NCBI GenBank assembly: GCA_938091655.1
Contig: CALKOA010000041.1
Coordinates: 1 to 53,686 of the forward strand
Reading direction: 5' to 3'
Source: an uncultured Balneolaceae bacterium
GTDB taxonomy: Bacteria > Bacteroidota > Rhodothermia > Balneolales > Balneolaceae
Length of the DNA: 53,686 nucleotides
Positions 16,380 to 29,250 of this stretch are shown piece after piece; the first letter of the stretch is position 1, and each line of letters opens with the position of its first letter. A program made the translations under genes and the position numbers. The notes under the pieces were generated by a model, which was given only the letters and a program-made list of their open reading frames with translations, was not told where the DNA came from and did not search any database.

Positions 16380-17315
16380 ATGTCCGAAAAATTTCATTTT
16401 CTAAAACTAGAAGCTACTGGTAATGATTTTATTCTGGTTGATGCAAGCAAGCAAGACATTCCCTTAGAACATCTAGAGCACATTGCCCCAGAAATTTGTA
16501 ATCGAAAGACCGGAATTGGAGCCGATGGATTACTCATTCTTCACCCTATTTCCACCTTGGGTGCAGACTATACTATGATCTATAAAAATGCGGACGGTAG
16601 TGACGCAGGAATGTGTGGTAATGGTGGAAGAGCTATTGCATTTTATGCCTCACAAAATGGCTATTCAGATACCCATCGCTTTCAAGTAAATGAACAAGTA
16701 TATGAGGCTTTCGTGCACCCTGGAAGCCATCAGGTCGAAATTAGCTTTCCTGATTGTGATGCTCCAAGTTCTGTTTCTAATGAGTGGCTGACTTGTCTGA
16801 ATATAGATTCTACTGAACAAAGTTCACAACAGGCCTCTATGTTATCCTCACTATTCAAAGCCGATGCTGCCTTTAGAGCCTACCCTCAAACCGAACACGT
16901 TGTGCTTTTTTCCAATGATCTTTTGGCTATTCAACCAACGGAAGAGTTGGCAAAATTAGGGCGTAGTATTCGTAATGATGAGCTTTTTCATCCCAGAGGA
17001 ACCAATGTGAATTTTGTTTGTAGCCAACAAGCGAATCATATTCAGCTAGAGACCTATGAACGCGGGGTGGAGGATTTCACCTTAGCATGTGGTACAGGTG
17101 CCATTGCAAGCGCGATGGCTCTGCATATGAAAGAAGGTGGTAAAGCTGGTTCGCACCTTTACCATGTCACAGTCCAAGGAGGATTCTTAGAGGTTTCTTT
17201 TGATTGCACAGGTACCGATGCATTGACTCACAGTGAACATGGTCCATTGTTTAAAAAAGTCTTACTCAAAGGTCCTGCACGATTTGTATTCAACGGTATT
17301 TGGGCTGGTAATTGA
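16380..17315 (+). CDS. dapF: Diaminopimelate epimerase
   Basis: Converts LL- to meso-diaminopimelate for peptidoglycan and lysine. The two catalytic cysteines are Cys79 in MCGNGGRAIA and Cys237 in ACGTGAIASA, with the start FLKLEATGNDFILVD and TYERGVEDFTLACG as further signatures. The 311-residue length is about 30 more than usual, from an insert around residues 130-165. It lies 3 nt after holB and 7 nt before the next gene. It fits with Alr and the wall hydrolases in the window. Confidence 0.97.
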   Translation: MSEKFHFLKLEATGNDFILVDASKQDIPLEHLEHIAPEICNRKTGIGADGLLILHPISTLGADYTMIYKNADGSDAGMCGNGGRAIAFYASQNGYSDTHRFQVNEQVYEAFVHPGSHQVEISFPDCDAPSSVSNEWLTCLNIDSTEQSSQQASMLSSLFKADAAFRAYPQTEHVVLFSNDLLAIQPTEELAKLGRSIRNDELFHPRGTNVNFVCSQQANHIQLETYERGVEDFTLACGTGAIASAMALHMKEGGKAGSHLYHVTVQGGFLEVSFDCTGTDALTHSEHGPLFKKVLLKGPARFVFNGIWAGN

Positions 17316-17322
17316 AATTCAA

Positions 17323-18654
17323 ATGGGTACTAAAATCAGTTCGAATTTCTTTACTCAGTATCTGTTGACCTATACCTACTACATGCTGGGTTTTATTTCG
17401 CTGCTTTGGATGAGTTGCAGTTCAACTATTAATCTAGCCCCAAGCAGCCCACCTATTCCTCAGGTAAACAGTTTACTGGTACTTCCTGAACAACGAAGTA
17501 TCCCCGATAATATTCGTAGTGTTCAGTTTTTCAGCTCTTCTCAAGCCTCTTCCCCGTTGGTTAGCGCTCGATTAGGATCCAGTGACCGACTTGTTCTTCG
17601 CTTCGATGAGTTGAGTGAGATCAACGGAATGTTTCGCATTCATTTTTCTCACCGAAACAAAGACTGGACACAGAGCAATCTCCCAACTACATGGTTTATG
17701 AATACCCCAAATCAGCGAATTGTCCAGGGCGGTTCTAAAAACCAAAGTAATAGTATACCATTTCACTCATATGATATTCAGTTTTCTCTGCGAGATCTTG
17801 AATTTTTAGCCAGTGGTTTTTACTTCATTCATGTATCTGATTACACCACAGGTATTGAATTGTTTAGCCTTCCGTTCGCACTTACTGAGCAGCTTGGCAC
17901 CCTTGATTTGAATGGAGAAACTCTATACAACAAAGGGAACTTAGGGGCGGCTGTAGATAGAATTTTTGCTGAATTTAGTTATCCAGAATTTATTGATATG
18001 CCCGTTTTTGATTTGAGCTTTCAGGTACTTCAAGATGGATTTTTACGAAAGGCTATACTAGCAAGAGGTAAAGATTTTAGCGAAGGAAAGGTAGCTAAAT
18101 TTTACCTTGAAGACTCCCAAAGCTATCCTGCTAACACGCGCTATTATGGCCTTAATCTATCCACATTTAGCCTTTCTAACCGAGATATATTAGAGTATGA
18201 AGAGTCCGATGAACTTCCACAGATAACCTTAAGAGAAGATTTTATATCATACAGCGATACCCCATATACTCTTCAATCGATGTATGGTAATCCCAGTTCA
18301 AAGATCACTGCACGATATGCAATGATCAATTTCCGATTTAACCCAATGGGTACGAGGCCTACCTATGATGATGAACTTTTTGTTGTAGGTGACTTTAACC
18401 AGTGGTCGGAAAACAAACAGCATAAAATGAAGTGGAACCCAGAGTTGCGTTTATTTGAAGCCCAAGTATTATTAAAAGAAGGCACATACAGATACACTTA
18501 TGCCACTCGTAATGGTAGTGATCTCGACATTATTGAGTTAGGAAGCAGTCTTACCAAGGAAAATCAATGGTATACAGGTATTTTATTTTATAGAGATCCT
18601 AATCGACAATACGACCGAATCCTTTACATTGGAAAGCTTCAACTTAGCCCTTGA
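17323..18654 (+). CDS. DUF5103 lipoprotein, candidate type IX secretion plug protein
   Basis: A 443-residue protein from the ATG at 17323, 7 nt after dapF; upstream in-frame Mets lie inside dapF. A hydrophobic N-terminus ends at a Cys (SLLWMSCSS), a non-ideal lipobox. The all-beta body has VQFFSSS, RLVLRFDEL, RIHFSHRNKDWTQS and FYFIHVSD, matching the DUF5103 family, whose members plug the type IX secretion channel in Bacteroidota. The C-terminal ~80 residues (FVVGDFNQWSENKQHKMKW, then GTYRYTYA) look like a CBM48/AMPK-like beta-sandwich. No other T9SS gene is present here. Confidence 0.75.
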   Translation: MGTKISSNFFTQYLLTYTYYMLGFISLLWMSCSSTINLAPSSPPIPQVNSLLVLPEQRSIPDNIRSVQFFSSSQASSPLVSARLGSSDRLVLRFDELSEINGMFRIHFSHRNKDWTQSNLPTTWFMNTPNQRIVQGGSKNQSNSIPFHSYDIQFSLRDLEFLASGFYFIHVSDYTTGIELFSLPFALTEQLGTLDLNGETLYNKGNLGAAVDRIFAEFSYPEFIDMPVFDLSFQVLQDGFLRKAILARGKDFSEGKVAKFYLEDSQSYPANTRYYGLNLSTFSLSNRDILEYEESDELPQITLREDFISYSDTPYTLQSMYGNPSSKITARYAMINFRFNPMGTRPTYDDELFVVGDFNQWSENKQHKMKWNPELRLFEAQVLLKEGTYRYTYATRNGSDLDIIELGSSLTKENQWYTGILFYRDPNRQYDRILYIGKLQLSP

Positions 18655-18712: not shown

Positions 18713-21700
18713 CTAAAAATCTATCCCTATAGAAAAGTAGTGAATAGGTGCATTTGAAAAACCGTCTCTATTATATGCCCAGCCCACATCATAACGTAGT
18801 GGTAAGCCAAAAACAATGGTTCTTAAACCAAATCCAGAGCCAATTAAAACATCTCCATCGAGATAAGAAAAAATATTCCCATTCTCATCTTGAAACGTGG
18901 TAGGTTCACTCACCTTAAAGTCGAGCGAAGCATCGTTAATTATTGGATTTCCGTCAATATCGGTGATTCCATAATCTATCTGCTGGCCCCAGGCTGTTCC
19001 CACGTCAAAGAAAGCTACACCTGTTACATTATATAATGGTAGAATAGGAAGAGCTCCTGGAATGACAGCAGCAAATAATGGAAATCTAAACTCAGCGTTT
19101 ATGAGCCCAAAATTATCTCCGTACACCGAATTGTATCTGTGCCCCCTGAGTGGAACAGCGGGTTGAGTAAAAAAAGTATCGGCTAAGCGTTCAAAAGGAA
19201 TTCCATTATTTGACCACTGATAATTAATCCATCCCATCATTCCCCCTAAAAAGTAGGTCTGCGAATCTTTTCCTACTGATGCTCCTCCACTGCCACGTAG
19301 TGCAATAGTATAGGAGTAACCAAGATTGATATAACTTCTAAAGTCTCCCATGACCGAGGCGAAGCTAGGCGCATCTGACCCAAGTCCAGGACTACCTGAA
19401 AAACTTAGAGTGTACCGAATCCCTCCTTGTGGAGTAATGAATCCAGGCAAGGTAGCATCTTTGGTAAAGGACATAGTGGGATATAAAAAAGAACTCTTCA
19501 GGTTGCTAGCCTCAGTAACACCGTAGGAATAAAGTCCACCAAAAGCAGCAACCGCGTCATAGTCACGAGCGATCCCAATCCAATTTAGCCCTCCGTCAAT
19601 ACGCGTGAATTTGTCAAATGGATATTGAATGGATACCCCACCACCGAAGGTTCTGAAGCGTAACAAATCACCCCCGAAGGTTTGATATTGCCTAGAAGTA
19701 TGGAAATACGAGGCAAACCAATTCATTCTATTTTTTAAATACCCATACTGTAGTGTGTAATCACTATTGCGTAGATCCGTCTGGAAATTGGTCCCCATTG
19801 CAAGCTGATGATCTCCTAGTAGGTCGCTGATCATAAATTGTGTAAGTGCATATGCACCGTAGCTAGAAGCTGCTACGGTTGGACTGTACGCAATATCAGT
19901 TGAGAATGTTAATCTATATGCTCTTGGTACGTATCGACCGTCTGTGGTAATATTGTTGTTAGGTTCAAAAATAAATTCATCTTCTAATAAGATGGTACTA
20001 TCTAAAATAACCTCCTCTGAAAACACGTAGTTTCTGAAATCGATTTCACCAGTTTCTTCAAAATCAACCACTTGATAATCTGGATCACTAAGTCGTTCTT
20101 GCTCCTCTAATTCTTCGCGCTCTGCCCCACTCATTAATCCTTGACTGTAGAGTTCATACGCATAACGAATTGCTGGAACACGTTGTTCTGGAGCCTCAAG
20201 ACCTCTACGCTTTGCCCAGTAATTTGGTTTAAGATTACTAGCTTTTGCGTTATTCAATGGATTTTTCAACAGGAAAATATCTAAATAACCTTCATTGATG
20301 GAACTAAAAGCTACTCTTGAGCCATCTGCGCTAATTGAAAACTGTGAAATTCCTGTCTGTAGGTTGGTGAGTACCTTCCATTCCTTGGTTGAAGGATCAG
20401 TTTGATATAGGTTCTGGATTCCGTTTTGATCCGATTGGAATATAATAGTACCATCTTGGATCTGTTGAGGTTGACGTTCGTTCCAATCCTTACTTAAGGT
20501 AATTCTATTTAGGGTATCACTACCTATTTCTAGCTGATAAATGTCACTTTGGTAGATTGTTTTTTGCTCGAGTAAGGTACTTTCTAAAGTAGCTTGTTTA
20601 AGTGCTAATTGATTTCCTCGCTCCGAACTAAACAAGATACTCTTAGAGTCTAGTGTCCAACTAGGCTCGTAATCAGAAACAAAATCTTGGGTGAGGTTAA
20701 TTAATTGTTTCTCACTTAAATCGTACATGAATATGTCTTGATACGGACCTATGTTCCCATCAAAGGCTAACTTAGTACCATCTGGTGACCAAGAAACAGA
20801 TCCAATTGCATCCAATTCAGGCATTGAAATTTTTTCTACTTCAGTACTCTGGTAATCGATAATTGCAATTTCATCAAAGCCCTTACTTTTTGTAGATAAC
20901 ACTATTTTACGACCGTCCGGAGACCAACTAAGATTGGGTTTCAAAATATTCAACTCTTCGAAAGCAGGGTCATCTTCGCCCTGGATGACTGTTTTTAACC
21001 TTTTTTTGGTTAATGCATCTATCACAATAACATCGAAATACCCTCTTTTATTGGTAATAAATGCTATTCTATCTCCCTGAGGTGAAATTTTTGGGGAAGT
21101 GTTATAGGACCCATAGTCCCCTCTTTCTGTCATAAGAGTTGCTATACGATCAGCTAACTCACGATCGGCGACTTCTGGGAAGTACCTTTTCCGAAGCGCA
21201 TCTTCCCACCGCTCTGAAAGTTCTTGTACCGTTAGGCCAATAGACTGCTGGAATCCATTCTCAACACTTCTTGTACTTTTAACCTTTTCAAGTACTTCTG
21301 CTATCTTTTCTCGTCCATATTCTTCGGCAATAAAATTCCAAACAGACTGTCCACCTCGGTAGGCGTAATACCCACTCAGATAGGGAATTGGAGGCAGATA
21401 ATTATTGAGTACTGCGTCCCGAATAAACATGTCGGTGTTGGTATCCCAACCCAAAGCCATATATTCTGCTAATCCTTCTTCAAACCAAAGGGGCAAGACT
21501 AATTGAATGTTATTGCGAAGTATAGATTGTATAGACCCGCCATAAAATAAATCATTAAATACCGCATGTACCAACTCATGATGCAAGGTCCTCCTAAAAT
21601 CATTGTAATCCCCATCAAAGGGTACTGTCATCCTATTCTTCATCTTATCAGTAACCCCCCCTATACCCTCTGCACTGGTGGGCAGTGCAACCACATTCGT

Positions 21701-22015
21701 CTGAGAGAAATCGTTATGAGAATCGTAAATAATGAGTGGAATCCGACTCACAATTTCATGTTGAAAATCTTCGCTAAGTTGTTGGTATGCAGATTCAATA
21801 CTTTTAGCTGCAAATTCTGCTAATTCGTAGTTCTTATCACCATAGTAGTAGACATCAAAATGTTTGGACTGTATAAATCGCCATTCAAACTGTTGATATT
21901 GAACTCTATTCTTACCAAAATTAGCATATTGAGCCTGTGCCACAGGGGAATATGCTAAGGAAAAAAGAATACCAAAAAAGAATAGTTTTTTAGGAATAGT
22001 GATTCTGAATTTCAT
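18713..22015 (-). CDS. Signal peptide / HExxH peptidase-like / PD40 propeller / BamA-like barrel fusion
   Basis: An 1100-residue secreted protein with a signal ending about VAQAQY (residue 30). Residues 40-290 form a gluzincin-like peptidase domain with HELVH at 146-150 and WFEEGLAEY at 177-185 as the third-ligand helix. Residues 300-620 carry TolB-type propeller repeats (NLSWSPDGRKIVLST, SVSWSPDGTKLAFDG, QFSISADGSRVAFSS). Residues 700-1100 look like a surface-antigen/BamA beta barrel ending in the aromatic IHYFSIGIDF. It is likely an outer-membrane protein with a periplasmic or surface protease part. Its start is 172 nt past the rnr stop. The substrate is unknown. Confidence 0.85.
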   Translation of the reverse strand: MKFRITIPKKLFFFGILFSLAYSPVAQAQYANFGKNRVQYQQFEWRFIQSKHFDVYYYGDKNYELAEFAAKSIESAYQQLSEDFQHEIVSRIPLIIYDSHNDFSQTNVVALPTSAEGIGGVTDKMKNRMTVPFDGDYNDFRRTLHHELVHAVFNDLFYGGSIQSILRNNIQLVLPLWFEEGLAEYMALGWDTNTDMFIRDAVLNNYLPPIPYLSGYYAYRGGQSVWNFIAEEYGREKIAEVLEKVKSTRSVENGFQQSIGLTVQELSERWEDALRKRYFPEVADRELADRIATLMTERGDYGSYNTSPKISPQGDRIAFITNKRGYFDVIVIDALTKKRLKTVIQGEDDPAFEELNILKPNLSWSPDGRKIVLSTKSKGFDEIAIIDYQSTEVEKISMPELDAIGSVSWSPDGTKLAFDGNIGPYQDIFMYDLSEKQLINLTQDFVSDYEPSWTLDSKSILFSSERGNQLALKQATLESTLLEQKTIYQSDIYQLEIGSDTLNRITLSKDWNERQPQQIQDGTIIFQSDQNGIQNLYQTDPSTKEWKVLTNLQTGISQFSISADGSRVAFSSINEGYLDIFLLKNPLNNAKASNLKPNYWAKRRGLEAPEQRVPAIRYAYELYSQGLMSGAEREELEEQERLSDPDYQVVDFEETGEIDFRNYVFSEEVILDSTILLEDEFIFEPNNNITTDGRYVPRAYRLTFSTDIAYSPTVAASSYGAYALTQFMISDLLGDHQLAMGTNFQTDLRNSDYTLQYGYLKNRMNWFASYFHTSRQYQTFGGDLLRFRTFGGGVSIQYPFDKFTRIDGGLNWIGIARDYDAVAAFGGLYSYGVTEASNLKSSFLYPTMSFTKDATLPGFITPQGGIRYTLSFSGSPGLGSDAPSFASVMGDFRSYINLGYSYTIALRGSGGASVGKDSQTYFLGGMMGWINYQWSNNGIPFERLADTFFTQPAVPLRGHRYNSVYGDNFGLINAEFRFPLFAAVIPGALPILPLYNVTGVAFFDVGTAWGQQIDYGITDIDGNPIINDASLDFKVSEPTTFQDENGNIFSYLDGDVLIGSGFGLRTIVFGLPLRYDVGWAYNRDGFSNAPIHYFSIGIDF

Positions 22016-22186: not shown

Positions 22187-24319
22187 CTATTTATTTCTAC
22201 CCGCAGGAATAAAATCTATTTGCCTTTTTTCCGGGTTAACTGCATCTACTTTAACATTAATTGCATCGCCTAATTGATATCTAGCCCCTGATCGCCTACC
22301 TATGAGTGAGTGTGATCTTGGCTCATAGTGAAAATAGTCACCTTTCAAATCGCCCACTCGAATCATTCCTTCACAAAACACCTCATTCAAGGTTACAAAT
22401 ATTCCTCGCTCCACAACTCCACTTATGACCCCGGTAAACTCTTCACCGATATGCTTACTAAGGTATTCGACTTGCTTCAGTTTGATGGAATCTCTCTCAG
22501 CATCTACGGCTACCTTTTCTCGCATACTACAGTGCTCACCCTCCTTTCGTAATTGATTTAGCTCATAGACTTTTTTGTTTTGAGCATATGCTTTTAACAA
22601 TCGATGAACAATCACATCAGGATACCTCCGAATGGGAGAGGTGAAATGAGCGTAATGGTGAAAACCCAAACCAAAATGACCTAAATTATCTGGGCTATAT
22701 ACCGCTTTGGCCATGGCACGCAAAGTAAGCCCATTTACTATATACTCCATTGGGGTTCCTTTTACACGTTCTAATAACTGGTTGATTGATGCAGGTTTGG
22801 CTAGCTCATCCAACTGAAACGATATCCCCAAAGGGCGAACTTGTTCGAGTACATCAGCTAATTTTTTCTCATCTGGTCGATCGTGTATACGATAGAAAAA
22901 AGGGAAGGCATCTTTCTTAGTTTGATCTCTGAGGTGCTGCACGTGTTCAGCCACCGTACGATTGGCCAGGAGCATACATTCTTCAATTAAACGATGGGCA
23001 AAAAGTCGTTTCTTTAAAATTACCTTTTCAGGTTCACCCTTATCATTTAGCACAAATCTTGGCTCCGGCGTATCAAAATCTATAGCTCCTTCTTTAAACC
23101 TCTTCTTGAGCAATTTTTTAGCCAAGTCAGCAACCAAATTTACTTCTTTAGACAAAAAATGGTCGGTTCCATCCAAGATTTCCTGTGCTTGTTCGTACGT
23201 AAATCGATGGTCAGAATGAATAACAGTTTCCTTAATTTCATACCGAACTAACTCAGCCTTTTGGTTTACTTCCATAAAACAACTGTAACAAAGTTTGTCT
23301 TCATTTGGACGTAGACTACAAACCCCATTACTCAAACGCTCTGGCAACATTGGAATAACCCGATCAACCAAGTAAATACTGGTTGCACGTTTATGGGCCT
23401 CTTCATCCAAAGCCGAACCCGGCTGCACATAATGAGTTACATCTGCAATGTGAACTCCTAAACGAAGATGACCATTCTCTAATTCTTCAATACTTAGGGC
23501 ATCATCAAAGTCTTTAGCATCGACGGGGTCAATGGTAAATACGGTTTTATTTCTGAAGTCTATCCTTTGATCAATGACTGACTGCTCAATAGCAAGTGAA
23601 ATGGCATCTGCTTCTGCCTCTACTTGTGACGGGAAATCAGCAATAAGTCCATTTTCAGCTAAAATAGACAACATGTTTGCATCATTTGTACCGGATTTAC
23701 CCAATCTACTAAGAATTTTAGCTTGGGGTAATGCCTGCCTATGCACCCAATTTTCTAGATTAAAGGTAACTTTCTCCCCTTCTTGGGCACCGTTTAAATC
23801 TTCTTTTTTTACATAAAAATCGACGTTTGCTGACTTCCTATCGCTTTCAATTATATAGGTGTCTGATTCTGTTTTGCGTAAGGTGCCTACGTAAAAGGAA
23901 CTTCCCCGTTCTAGTACATCAACCACTTTAGCTTTGGGATTTCGAGCCTGCTTTTTACTTTTTAGCACCTTGACCGCTACTCTATCTCCGGCTAAAGCAA
24001 GTCCGGCGTCACTTGCGTGCACCCTTAAATCTTCATCCAGCCCTTCTACTATGACAAATCCTGTCCCTCTCTGGTTAAATTCTATACGCCCTTCCAATAC
24101 CGAATGATCTCGGTTTAATCGAACCCAACCTTGATGTATTCGTACTCTTTGTTTATTGCTTAAACTAGTTAGTGCTTTTTCTAATCGCTTGTATTCTTTT
24201 TTGGAATACATTTCTAGGGTTTCCTGAAATTCATTTTGATGGATTTTCTTCTCAGGATGTATGCTAAGTAATTGTAGTAATGTCTCTTCTAAGCTACTTA
24301 ATCGGTCGTTTCGACTCAT
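22187..24319 (-). CDS. rnr: Ribonuclease R (RNB-family 3'-5' exoribonuclease)
   Basis: Degrades structured RNA. The 710-residue protein has N-terminal cold-shock-type RNA-binding regions, a central RNB domain (about 240-570) with the acidic catalytic cluster DPVDAKDFDDALS and GVHIADVTHYVQPGSALDEEA, and HFTSPIRRYPDVIVHRLL. A C-terminal S1 domain (EEFTGVISGVVERGIFVTLN) follows. The length and domain order fit RNase R rather than RNase II. It is flanked by tamB upstream (47 nt) and the large fusion gene downstream. A possible terminator follows it. Confidence 0.96.
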   Translation of the reverse strand: MSRNDRLSSLEETLLQLLSIHPEKKIHQNEFQETLEMYSKKEYKRLEKALTSLSNKQRVRIHQGWVRLNRDHSVLEGRIEFNQRGTGFVIVEGLDEDLRVHASDAGLALAGDRVAVKVLKSKKQARNPKAKVVDVLERGSSFYVGTLRKTESDTYIIESDRKSANVDFYVKKEDLNGAQEGEKVTFNLENWVHRQALPQAKILSRLGKSGTNDANMLSILAENGLIADFPSQVEAEADAISLAIEQSVIDQRIDFRNKTVFTIDPVDAKDFDDALSIEELENGHLRLGVHIADVTHYVQPGSALDEEAHKRATSIYLVDRVIPMLPERLSNGVCSLRPNEDKLCYSCFMEVNQKAELVRYEIKETVIHSDHRFTYEQAQEILDGTDHFLSKEVNLVADLAKKLLKKRFKEGAIDFDTPEPRFVLNDKGEPEKVILKKRLFAHRLIEECMLLANRTVAEHVQHLRDQTKKDAFPFFYRIHDRPDEKKLADVLEQVRPLGISFQLDELAKPASINQLLERVKGTPMEYIVNGLTLRAMAKAVYSPDNLGHFGLGFHHYAHFTSPIRRYPDVIVHRLLKAYAQNKKVYELNQLRKEGEHCSMREKVAVDAERDSIKLKQVEYLSKHIGEEFTGVISGVVERGIFVTLNEVFCEGMIRVGDLKGDYFHYEPRSHSLIGRRSGARYQLGDAINVKVDAVNPEKRQIDFIPAGRNK

Positions 24320-24366: not shown

Positions 24367-27300
24367 TTATTCCATGCTAAGTGCAGGTTCTTCTTCTTTT
24401 CTTGTGAAAAGCCTAGTTACAGGCTCAAATAGCTGCCCGAGAAAACTTCGCCATGAACTAAATGAAACTTCTGTTTCTAAACCAATCCCATTTATGTCTT
24501 GAGATTGCTGAGAATTGTCCGACCCAGAATAATTACTAAATGTGGGGTCTTGTCGGTGAAATGCAGTTAAGGCAAGTGCCTGATTTATCTTGTAGGTGGC
24601 CCCTATATCACCAATAGTGGACTGACTACCTGTAATTTGTCCTTCTCGACTCAAAATAATGCGATCGTTATATAATCGAAGCGCTACTCCCAAATCAATG
24701 TTGTTATAGGTATTTAAATTAAAATCAATGTCTAGACTTCCAATATCACTACGTAGCAATGAATTCATTTGATTAGAAAGAAGTGGACTTATCAACTGAC
24801 TAGATAATAGTGGATTTAATACGGCCGCACTTCCACTAAAATTATTGGTTAAAGAATTTGTTGCATCCGAAACAGCGGACGATGACGGGATAAAGTCACC
24901 CATTAACAAGAAACTAGTTGCTTGAATGAGTTTTTCGTCTTCGTTGCGATTAAGTGCATTAATTTGCGTTTTTAGGGTAGAATTTTGTTGGGTTTCGAAC
25001 GTATTTGGTAACCTAAAAAAGAAATCATTTTCAATACTTTCTAATGATCCACCAATACTAAGCACCAATTCGACGGGAACACGTGAGGCTTGTTCTTGGT
25101 CGATTTGATCGCGTGTTCTGGTCAAAGTATTTATATCGGGTCTAGCTTCGTATAAGGCCTGAACATTTAATTTTGCATCTATTGGGTCGCCATCCCAACG
25201 AAGGGTACCGCCAGGTATGAGCTCAAAGGTACGCGTAAAAATATCCCCACTCACGAAATTGTATTCACCATCTTGAATATCGAACTGGCCAAAAACAGAA
25301 AATGCTTCGTCCTGTAACTGAATACGAATATTACCTAGGCCATTGGCAGTAATTTGATCACCCGTTATTGGGTCAAAAATAAGCTCTACTGTCATTGGTA
25401 TTTGAGACTCAAATTGTAAGTCAAGAGTGAAGCGCTCGGTAAAACTACGCGTTTCTTGAACTCCCATGCTCTCATACTGACCCCCATTAATTCCCGATTT
25501 ATTATTCAAATTAGCGAAGTCAACATTTGTGAAGTTCTCGACGAATCGAATAAACTTGTTGTTTTCTTCAAATTCTGTGCGCTCAATCAACGGCAGCCCT
25601 ATTGAAGAATATGGCCCAATTTGTATAGGACCCTCTGAAAATAAGAGTGGATTTTCATTGGTTCCTGTCAAACGAATGAGCGCAGTACCGTAGCCTTGGC
25701 CAAAAAATGGTGCCTCTTCATCAAAGCCAGTATTCAGGAAATGAAATTCATTCATTTGAAGATTTAGGTCAATATCATGAATTGGCCCAAAGCGATTTAG
25801 ATTATAACTTCCATTTAAGTTGGCAGTACCCCCAGAAGGATCCATGATAAAGAAGTCCTGAAAAACCAACCCATTTTCACTTGAAAACTCGAGAGGCCCT
25901 GCGGCATAGTAGTAGGTATCTAAAAATCTTGGGCGTATAAACACAGGGTCAATTTCCCCGATGGAGTAATTTATACTAAAATCATATCCCGAATTAGAAC
26001 CCCAGACATTCCCCATTCCAGATGCGGTACCCGACATTTCAGAAAATACATTCGGAGATAGAAAAGGTAATATCCATAAATCAATATTTTCAAAATTCAG
26101 GTCAAAGTAATAGAGTGTATCCGTCGTTAGAGTTTGATTAATTCCAGGGGTATTGATGTATCCATTAAAGGCCACATTTTGACCCGCTCGCCCAGAACTG
26201 TTAAAATAGTCAGGGTATAGTGTAGAATCAGTGAAAACAGAAATTTGAGTGTCAAACCTATTTTTTAACGAATTAAAGGTGGAAATCAACGATAAATCGC
26301 CCACCACTTGGTTGTTTAAAGAAAAACTATTGATAGTCAAATATCCTTGAACACTTGGCGATTTTTGAAGAGTTCGCGTAGAGAATTGACCATCCATGAC
26401 CCCGTCAATATCTTGTTTTACGTTCAATAATTCAGCCAGACGATCTAGTTGAATTTGATCAACAATAAATTGTATAGAATCCTCTGGCGAATCACTGTAG
26501 ACTCCACGAATATCTAAAAGCTCATCATTGTTATGCATACTAACCTGATTAAATGCTACACTAAGCTCACGATCTACATTGATGGCTATATCGCCTAAAT
26601 TACTCCAAATGTATGAACCAGACCCTAGTTCCAATGCATCAAATACGATGTTATGTTGACTTTCTGCGGCAAAAATATCTCCACTGGACTCCAAAAAAGC
26701 CCCAGAGGGTAATGAACCGATACGTTGATTAAACCGAATACTATCCGCCTGCATAGATACCTGCCATTGTACATCGCCCAGTTCTAGATCTGACGTTTGG
26801 ATGGCTTTGACATTGGTACGGGATTCCACTACTGAAAAATTCAAACTGGTTGAATCATACCTAAAACTTGCCGTTAATTGTGAGTTTAAACTATCTATCT
26901 GTATGGTATTCCACTGGAAATCGGAATCAGAAATATCCACATTCATAAGGATTCGATCCCTATTTGCATCTAAACGCCCATTGACTACCATAAAACTCTT
27001 TTGAATGGGATTATTAGCCCAAATAGCCTGCACTAATTCGTTGTCCTTAAGAGCAAACTCCCACTCTAACTGTGTCTGATAGGACACGCCATTAGCAAGA
27101 CTAGATTTAGTCCCACTTGATTCTTTAAAGGCTATTGACGGAGTTTGAGGCAGTTCGTTGAAACGAAGTCTATTCCATTCTCTGTTTAAGTAGTCAGACC
27201 AATGATAGTACAGAAAGGTCATACTTGATGGATTAAGTGCTCCTACTACCTGAAAATCTAATGGAGAGGAAGTCACTCGTAATTGCTGACGTTGGGGTGA

Positions 27301-29250
27301 TTCAGCAATGTAATCGATAAAAAACTGCCTATCTAACCACGTTGTATCCTGGGTAATGATAGATGGTATATCTGCACTTAACACCCCTTCTGAGAGTTTA
27401 TTATTTTCAAAAATAGCGTTAAAGATGCCGCTAATTTTTGGAATCGAACTAGTATGATCCGATAGATAGCGACTTAGCGCTGCTCTATCAGTTTTTTTAT
27501 GGGCCTCGTTCGGGTTCAGTTGAGAATTCTGGTTCATTTGTGAACTAGCTAATGCATCCTGAGGTTTAGAATAAAGGAGTACACTATCCATTTGAAAGCT
27601 ACTCTCTATCTCCATCACAGACAACCCGTAACGTCCCCATCCTTCCCAGCTGAGCTTCCCGAACTCTGAGTCAAATCCTGCTGAAATAGTGTAGGGCTGA
27701 ACGCGCTGCAAATAAGCGCCGGTACCTACTTCTACGCGCCCTATTTGTGCGGTATCCGGTGCTATATTTAGTACCACATTATCATATTCTAGCTCACCAA
27801 TATTCACCTTTGGGAGTTGAAGGCTTAGATTATATTCAGGTCTAAATTCCGCTGAATTGACTTGATGCACGTCAACAGTGCCGCTAATAGTTACTTGCTC
27901 CTTTGGTAACACATCAACTAACCAATCACTTAGTACAAATTGATTAAAATTAGCTGATGCTTTTAAAGATGGAATAAATGAAGAGTAAGTGGAGTTAGAT
28001 TTTTTTTGTCTACGAATATCAATAGTCAGGTCAATTTCTGAAACTGGATCAGGATTTATTTGCTGGTTCGTTATAGTACGTAGATCTATTCTTTGCTTTT
28101 CGCCGGTATCTTCGAATGAAAAATACATCTGTCTAGAAGCCAAATTTTCAGTAGCCAAAAAAGAATGATGCCTGGCTATCGAGGCTAATATTTCTGGATC
28201 CCATTCCAATACATCTCCCTCTAAGAACCATCTATCACCGCTTTTATTTCCTTCCAATACTAGCCTCCCTTGTCTGGATATTGCCTGCAGGTTTTCGATT
28301 CTAATATCTTCTTTATCGAACGATATGGTTCCTAATAATTCCGTGATAACTAAGCCATATTTATCCATTGTTTCTAATGCCGTGCTTGGTAGTATAAGAG
28401 GAGCTAAGCCATTATAAAATGTGGAATCGATTTTAACCGATTGTAGCGCTAACTGGTACGTAGATCCAGACTGCTTTAGTTCAGCTTCAGAGGAAAATTC
28501 AGAAGTTGTTAAGATGAGATTTTCAGCTATCCAGGATATAGGAGATCCTGTAAAGCGCCCACTAAAATTGATCTCATCTTGCCAATTAGGTAGGGTTAAT
28601 TCAGAACGAACCTCAGGAATGTCTATACGAACATCCACTCCTCTCTTTTGAATTCCCAGGGTCGCACCACCACCTCTGAAAACAAGCTCTTTTTGAGAAG
28701 ATAAATTGGCACGATCTTTATCGGAATGACCCAGAAAATCCAGTCCCTTACCGCTCGACTTTACTTTAATGGAATCGATGTCCACAATCAACTCGGTTAT
28801 AAGAAGATCTAAGCCACGGTTAAATTCCGATGAAACTGAATCAACAAGTTCATTATGAGCCTTATCAGTAGGCATAGATCCGCCAATACGTGCGCTAACG
28901 CCTTTTGCATGTAGAAATGGGAATTCCACCTGACCTTTGGCCAAAGCTGTCACCTTCCAAGCATACGATAAATCGCTAATAATCAACGATTCTAGTCCTA
29001 CTACACTATCCTCAATGATTATATTTAGCTGGTTCATGTGCGAGTTAAACGGGAAAAAACCGGTAGAATGTTCAAAGTCTAATTGATACGGTATATCCTC
29101 GGGGAGCAATATCGAATTGATTAACCACTTTTTGGGGGCATCGAATTGAAAAGACGCCAACACTAGCACGAATATGGCTATTAAGACACTAAACCCACCT
29201 ATAAGGTTTCGCCAGAACAGTGAGGGAGTATGTTGTTCTGAACTATGCAT
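24367..29250 (-). CDS. tamB: TamB-like translocation and assembly module protein
   Basis: A 1627-residue protein with an N-terminal membrane anchor (about residues 13-32) and a very long beta-rich periplasmic part. The C-terminal ~350 residues carry the TamB signature region (PGGTLRWDGDPIDAKLNVQA, ATSFLLMGDFIPSS and LRLYNDRIILSREGQI). TamB proteins bridge inner and outer membranes and aid outer-membrane protein insertion or lipid transfer. It begins 3 nt after the aroB stop, so it is likely co-transcribed with aroK and aroB. The nearest barrel protein is the BamA-like fusion beyond rnr; no classic TamA gene is seen. Confidence 0.93.
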   Translation of the reverse strand: MHSSEQHTPSLFWRNLIGGFSVLIAIFVLVLASFQFDAPKKWLINSILLPEDIPYQLDFEHSTGFFPFNSHMNQLNIIIEDSVVGLESLIISDLSYAWKVTALAKGQVEFPFLHAKGVSARIGGSMPTDKAHNELVDSVSSEFNRGLDLLITELIVDIDSIKVKSSGKGLDFLGHSDKDRANLSSQKELVFRGGGATLGIQKRGVDVRIDIPEVRSELTLPNWQDEINFSGRFTGSPISWIAENLILTTSEFSSEAELKQSGSTYQLALQSVKIDSTFYNGLAPLILPSTALETMDKYGLVITELLGTISFDKEDIRIENLQAISRQGRLVLEGNKSGDRWFLEGDVLEWDPEILASIARHHSFLATENLASRQMYFSFEDTGEKQRIDLRTITNQQINPDPVSEIDLTIDIRRQKKSNSTYSSFIPSLKASANFNQFVLSDWLVDVLPKEQVTISGTVDVHQVNSAEFRPEYNLSLQLPKVNIGELEYDNVVLNIAPDTAQIGRVEVGTGAYLQRVQPYTISAGFDSEFGKLSWEGWGRYGLSVMEIESSFQMDSVLLYSKPQDALASSQMNQNSQLNPNEAHKKTDRAALSRYLSDHTSSIPKISGIFNAIFENNKLSEGVLSADIPSIITQDTTWLDRQFFIDYIAESPQRQQLRVTSSPLDFQVVGALNPSSMTFLYYHWSDYLNREWNRLRFNELPQTPSIAFKESSGTKSSLANGVSYQTQLEWEFALKDNELVQAIWANNPIQKSFMVVNGRLDANRDRILMNVDISDSDFQWNTIQIDSLNSQLTASFRYDSTSLNFSVVESRTNVKAIQTSDLELGDVQWQVSMQADSIRFNQRIGSLPSGAFLESSGDIFAAESQHNIVFDALELGSGSYIWSNLGDIAINVDRELSVAFNQVSMHNNDELLDIRGVYSDSPEDSIQFIVDQIQLDRLAELLNVKQDIDGVMDGQFSTRTLQKSPSVQGYLTINSFSLNNQVVGDLSLISTFNSLKNRFDTQISVFTDSTLYPDYFNSSGRAGQNVAFNGYINTPGINQTLTTDTLYYFDLNFENIDLWILPFLSPNVFSEMSGTASGMGNVWGSNSGYDFSINYSIGEIDPVFIRPRFLDTYYYAAGPLEFSSENGLVFQDFFIMDPSGGTANLNGSYNLNRFGPIHDIDLNLQMNEFHFLNTGFDEEAPFFGQGYGTALIRLTGTNENPLLFSEGPIQIGPYSSIGLPLIERTEFEENNKFIRFVENFTNVDFANLNNKSGINGGQYESMGVQETRSFTERFTLDLQFESQIPMTVELIFDPITGDQITANGLGNIRIQLQDEAFSVFGQFDIQDGEYNFVSGDIFTRTFELIPGGTLRWDGDPIDAKLNVQALYEARPDINTLTRTRDQIDQEQASRVPVELVLSIGGSLESIENDFFFRLPNTFETQQNSTLKTQINALNRNEDEKLIQATSFLLMGDFIPSSSAVSDATNSLTNNFSGSAAVLNPLLSSQLISPLLSNQMNSLLRSDIGSLDIDFNLNTYNNIDLGVALRLYNDRIILSREGQITGSQSTIGDIGATYKINQALALTAFHRQDPTFSNYSGSDNSQQSQDINGIGLETEVSFSSWRSFLGQLFEPVTRLFTRKEEEPALSME

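Follow-up and report, generated by a model that had tools for sequence, protein, structure and literature searches.

Proteins that join a propeller to an Omp85 barrel were catalogued in 2014 as WD40-Omp85 and likened, in the main text of that survey, to a fusion of BamA and BamB (Heinz and Lithgow, PMC4104836). The same main text mentions no peptidase domain, no split into catalytic and dead versions and no linkage to tamB. In the patatin-Omp85 protein PlpD of Pseudomonas aeruginosa an enzyme domain is carried on an Omp85 barrel and resides in the periplasm (PMC11116518), whilst the edge strand of BepA, an M48 peptidase of E. coli, serves both proteolysis and promotion of LptD assembly (PMC8423444). 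How barrels stalled during insertion are recognized and cleared has yet to be settled (for a review, see PMC13067283). Two Omp85 signatures, one at the L6 tip and one on strand 13, make the lid lock, the latter having the form FxDxG in the TamA/BamA insertases and GxDxG in the translocase FhaC (PMC4490367).

The gene described here lies in a stretch of 53,686 nucleotides from an uncultured Balneolaceae bacterium, referred to as the window. As in WD40-Omp85, a TolB-like propeller precedes an Omp85 barrel in its product, which carries a metallopeptidase-like domain in addition. A preliminary description had held the role of this architecture to be undescribed; its propeller-Omp85 part belongs to the subfamily catalogued in the 2014 survey, which is known but unstudied. 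In the literature searched, which lay mostly outside subscription journals so that absence is no proof, no description was found of the peptidase-propeller-Omp85 combination, its lineage split or its link to tamB, and the passages searched in recent papers on Bacteroidota BAM and TamL do not mention the architecture. What appears to be new is thus a WD40-Omp85 that bears a peptidase domain, with a pseudopeptidase branch confined to certain lineages, and a function hypothesis is offered for a subfamily known, as far as found, only from the 2014 survey.

Architecture and predicted structure of the product

The open reading frame noted in the preliminary description was confirmed exactly, and its reading as an HExxH peptidase-like region, a propeller and a BamA-like barrel in one chain was borne out by Pfam, AlphaFold2 (AF2) and Foldseek. 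The features are as follows, in window coordinates.

18713..22015, minus strand: whole gene, peptidase-propeller-Omp85 fusion, 1100 aa, ATG start
21932..22015, minus strand: putative type I signal peptide, residues 1-28 (...VAQA-Q), read from the sequence, no lipobox Cys
21140..21928, minus strand: Peptidase_MA_2 / gluzincin-type domain, residues 30-292 (Pfam, AF2, conservation)
21566..21580, minus strand: HELVH, residues 146-150, predicted zinc ligands H146 and H150, predicted general base E147
21461..21487, minus strand: WFEEGLAEY, residues 177-185, predicted third ligand E180 and second-shell E184
20246..21139, minus strand: six-bladed TolB-like beta-propeller, residues 293-590 (PD40, TIGR02800, Foldseek)
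19916..20245, minus strand: linker, helical then disordered, residues 591-700 (pLDDT below 50 at 643-681)
18716..19915, minus strand: 16-stranded Omp85 barrel, residues 701-1100, C-terminal Phe (AF2, Foldseek, PF01103 in orthologs)
19139..19150, minus strand: LRGH at the L6 tip, residues 956-959, equivalent of the Omp85 motif (V/I)RG(Y/F)
18998..19012, minus strand: FxDxG as FFDVG, residues 1002-1006, strand 13, insertase-type lid lock

The probable signal-peptide cleavage site (VAQA-QY) was assigned by manual reading. The window protein exceeded the Pfam cut-offs for Peptidase_MA_2 (PF13485; residues 76-274, 47.7 bits vs 32.4) and for PD40 propeller repeats (60.6 bits vs 20.9). PF13485 was matched by 35 of 41 family members at E 0.01, and PF01103 by four of the 41; the latter is not listed for the window protein itself and exceeded its cut-off of 24 in the Ignavibacteria locus L096 (43.5 bits), in the Balneolaceae genome G025 (45.8 bits) and in G073 (62.1 bits). 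No POTRA family, of which BamA/TamA-type proteins have at least one domain, was present among the Pfam matches of the 41 members, and the linker is predicted to be disordered. An M48 profile was absent from the window protein's Pfam matches up to E = 1. The only strong sequence relatives in the PDB were TolB chains, and a profile of the peptidase domain matched no solved structure among PDB sequences. Identity as a TolB ortholog was rejected, since TIGR02800 scored 116 bits vs an equivalog cut-off of 343.15; the protein resembles TolB in its six-bladed propeller, its top structural match, but falls far below the TolB model cut-off and has the propeller fused to other domains.

The AF2 model, built from a 41-sequence alignment (mean pLDDT 78.3, pTM 0.76), places HELVH on helix 137-158 and E180 and E184 on helix 176-188, giving the peptidase domain the order strand, active-site helix, Glu helix. 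The region is therefore predicted to fold as a zincin-like domain, and the failure to fold that had been named as grounds for doubt was not seen. Six propeller blades lie between approximately 293 and 590 and 16 barrel strands span 704-1096; blades and strands, here and in the model of a homolog, were counted by manual reading of the DSSP string. In whole-chain Foldseek searches the top structures were TolB (E 6e-14), with BamA at E about 4e-10, so that the C-terminus too is predicted to form the barrel proposed for it, of the 16-stranded Omp85 type. In the model LRGH falls after strand 11 and before strand 12, and FFDVG is part of strand 13. Although the window protein reads LRGH at the L6 tip, the RG core is conserved: among intact homologs (see below) R957 is present in 134/141 and G958 in 136/141, and both are present in 27/27 of the others. 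F1002, D1004 and G1006 are invariant in all 168 homologs.

Distribution and state of the catalytic residues

Of 58 sampled Balneolales genomes, 56 have an ortholog, whole or partial, and the other two (G005 and G016, 78-79% complete) give weak matches only. MAGs of Balneolaceae/Balneola are 95-97% identical to the window. Of 296 genomes sampled across the phylum, 187 (about two thirds) match at 1e-30. This figure is a minimum for homologs, since two of ten presumed negatives were picked up by a broader profile.

The metallopeptidase site had been called apparently intact, and in the window protein the five catalytic positions are indeed complete, with the spacing HExxH-(29)-E plus a second-shell E. 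Of 168 distinct homologs, 141 have the full set (H, E, H, E, E), some of them with as little as 29% identity to the window in the peptidase domain; a chance occurrence of HExxH, expected 0.005 times per protein of such composition, was therefore rejected. In this intact group the mean majority frequency is 0.645 for the peptidase domain, 0.548 for the propeller and 0.557 for the barrel. The peptidase is thus the most conserved domain and its catalytic set is complete in the large majority of homologs, as expected of a working enzyme.

The remaining 27 homologs have lost the catalytic set wholly or partly, whilst domain, predicted fold and architecture stay. Misalignment was rejected as a cause, since HExxH occurs nowhere in the 27 sequences and the dead and intact domains are homologous over their full length in a colinear profile alignment (hhalign E 3e-64, 258 columns). 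In a 105-row tree, which was quick, without bootstrap and with an unfixed root, 26 of the 27 dead proteins form one clade (SH-aLRT 100) containing loci of Cytophagales, Rhodocytophaga, Cyclobacteriaceae and Bacteroidales. Two changes account for the intact and dead states on this tree, compared with a mean of 24.0 after shuffling, and none of 500 shuffles was as low. The direction, loss rather than gain, follows by parsimony because HExxH is present in the divergent L182-L192 subfamily and is the defining feature of the parent peptidase family. By parsimony there was one ancestral conversion to a pseudopeptidase, in Cytophagales, Bacteroidales and allies, and one independent loss, that of L213, outside the 26-member clade. 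At L213 (5815-9273, genome G313) HExxH is replaced by REL although both downstream Glu residues remain, which may reflect a separate inactivation that has gone less far.

In the dead proteins the peptidase-like domain and the barrel are about equally conserved (mean majority frequency 0.504 vs 0.499), and the AF2 model of a dead homolog, with a pTM of only 0.53, has the domain's helices and strands in an unchanged order and 16 barrel strands. A domain that is whole, keeps its element order and is conserved like its own barrel points to a retained non-catalytic role, and because Bacteroidia lose the protease residues and keep everything else, proteolysis is not the whole function across the family. 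This suggests that the domain has a further task beyond cleavage, for instance holding proteins or checking them en route into the membrane. The natural occurrence of active and dead versions of one architecture would let proteolytic and scaffold roles be separated through exchange or mutation of a single domain.

A divergent HExxH-bearing peptidase-propeller subfamily of approximately 1050 aa was also observed (L182-L185, and L190, L191 and L192 in G218, G092 and G116). The last three genomes, of family f30, each have a dead ortholog and a separate divergent member, as if the active role had split off into the divergent subfamily.

Candidate functions of the barrel and its attached domains

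The reading that best accounts for these data is the one first proposed for this gene, a self-anchored outer-membrane protease or quality-control assembly factor: a periplasm-facing, barrel-anchored protein that would work like BepA combined with an Omp85 insertase. It is held tentatively, at a probability of about 0.45. A barrel-anchored factor of this kind would explain both the strict retention of catalysis in most lineages and the survival of the domain without it in Bacteroidia. Like BepA, which has proteolytic and non-proteolytic roles, it would place a periplasmic HExxH peptidase at a site of barrel assembly, but BepA is a separate protein of another peptidase family and has no barrel. 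By Omp85 topology and the precedent of PlpD, the peptidase and propeller probably lie in the periplasm.

In the outer membrane, a barrel that has a lid lock of the insertase type would carry a periplasmic part in which the propeller and the predicted zinc-metallopeptidase domain replace the POTRA domains. Like BamB or TolB, the propeller would give barrel or surface-protein intermediates a platform to dock on, and the TamB-like protein encoded in the same cluster might deliver them. The peptidase domain would bind exposed strands of an intermediate and help it on, or cut it if stalled, as BepA does at BAM; in Bacteroidia the cutting step would have been lost once and the binding or scaffold role kept. 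Zinc binding, proteolysis, the substrates and the partnership with TamB are all presumptive in this scheme.

PlpD likewise has a hydrolase domain on an Omp85 barrel, with a periplasmic placement that is expected here too, but it is a lipase rather than a peptidase, has a POTRA domain, is without a propeller and has been shown to be a homodimer. It also stands as precedent for a reading in which the barrel is a mere anchor, possibly oligomerising, that holds the enzyme in the periplasm (PMC11116518), the peptidase processing or turning over a periplasmic protein or peptide unrelated to OMP assembly. The absence of POTRA domains, which insertase function usually uses, is in keeping with this, and a protein so built may insert nothing. 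However, the insertase-type lid-lock motif is invariant even in dead-enzyme proteins, and an anchor for an enzyme would leave unexplained why dead-enzyme proteins are retained over a whole clade, which makes this reading somewhat unlikely.

PlpD also bears on the notion that the N-terminal domains are exported through the barrel, in a type Vd-like or autotransporter-like manner, to act as an exoprotease at the surface. A metallopeptidase is a plausible surface hydrolase, and surface export was considered for another enzyme-Omp85 class in the 2014 survey's own text (PMC4104836), but PlpD, the model for the idea, keeps its enzyme in the periplasm (PMC11116518). Moreover, a folded propeller-peptidase of 560 residues would need to pass a lid-locked barrel, and variable exoproteases are unlike this core gene, which is kept across Balneolales with a single close ortholog in each genome. 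Export of this kind appears highly improbable.

Also encoded in the same genome is a conventional BamA that has five POTRA domains; its gene adjoins an uppS-like ORF by manual reading. Replacement of BamA was therefore rejected and the peptidase-propeller-Omp85 protein is not the main insertase. Three more Omp85 proteins besides BamA are present in the incomplete genome G000 (L144:566-3037, L145:2823-5012 and L147:2120-3520), none seen beside a TamB gene; among these three, the protein of 467 aa has no N-terminal domain match.

Neighbouring genes and the tamB cluster

A relation to TamB had been suggested earlier, and it exists in the form of the gene order tamB-rnr-peptidase-propeller-Omp85 gene. 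The two genes concerned are as follows.

22187..24319, minus strand: rnr, ribonuclease R, next gene upstream (TIGR02063 757.9 bits), adjacency conserved
24367..29250, minus strand: TamB-like protein, upstream in the same cluster, assigned through relatives in its ortholog family

The TamB/AsmA-like protein (1627 aa) has no Pfam match of its own; its relative L218 matches PF04357 (TamB) at 124.8 bits, and one Balneolales relative matches AsmA instead. A TamB match on contig C66 of the same genome was rejected, being weak (12.2 bits) and falling within the ORF of a TonB-dependent receptor. Where Balneolales loci have enough flank, the order is rqcH-aroK-aroB-tamB-rnr-peptidase-propeller-Omp85 gene. 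Outside Balneolales tamB-rnr and the peptidase-propeller-Omp85 gene occur in this order at 12 loci, of families f18, f20, f23, f26, f38, f41 and f47, and rnr adjoins the gene in L160 and L219.

This conserved order could mean that the peptidase-propeller-Omp85 protein is the outer-membrane partner of the TamB-like protein, replacing TamA or TamL in the handling of lipids or a subset of OMPs, with the peptidase as an accessory. In six non-Balneolales genomes (G058, G073, G066, G104, G165 and G108) the TamB of the cluster is the only PF04357 match, and the gene link is of interest in lineages where the outer-membrane partner of TamB is not obvious. As in TamA/TamL with TamB, there is an Omp85 barrel with the insertase form FxDxG and, in many lineages, tamB in the same cluster; unlike those systems the window protein is without POTRA domains and without a lipobox, and rnr lies between tamB and its gene. 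In known TAMs it is the POTRA domain that contacts TamB. In five high-completeness Balneolaceae a separate TamB lies approximately 4 kb from a different Omp85 (656-671 aa), so that the TamB-like protein of the cluster is a second one there, another TAM-like pair exists and the peptidase-propeller-Omp85 protein need not be the partner of TamB. Moreover, no such link is seen at the Bacteroidia loci, at the Ignavibacteria locus L096 or in the further families sampled from the class to which the window belongs. The position of rnr suggests a housekeeping operon, and linkage alone argues weakly for partnership. A TAM-like module is thus unlikely.

The barrel-anchored assembly and quality-control factor preferred above can be extended to a POTRA-less Omp85 insertase fed by a dedicated TamB-like bridge, insertion and proteolytic proof-reading being united in one chain and the protease switched off once in the Bacteroidia ancestor. 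So full a scheme is quite improbable.

In many Balneolales a plug-dapF-holB-ccmB group converges on the peptidase-propeller-Omp85 gene from the other side. In the window the converging neighbour (17233-18654, plus strand) encodes a Type IX secretion plug protein (NF052315, 137 bits), a pairing kept in many Balneolales, and the C-terminus of this plug protein gives a weak AMPK1_CBM-like match.
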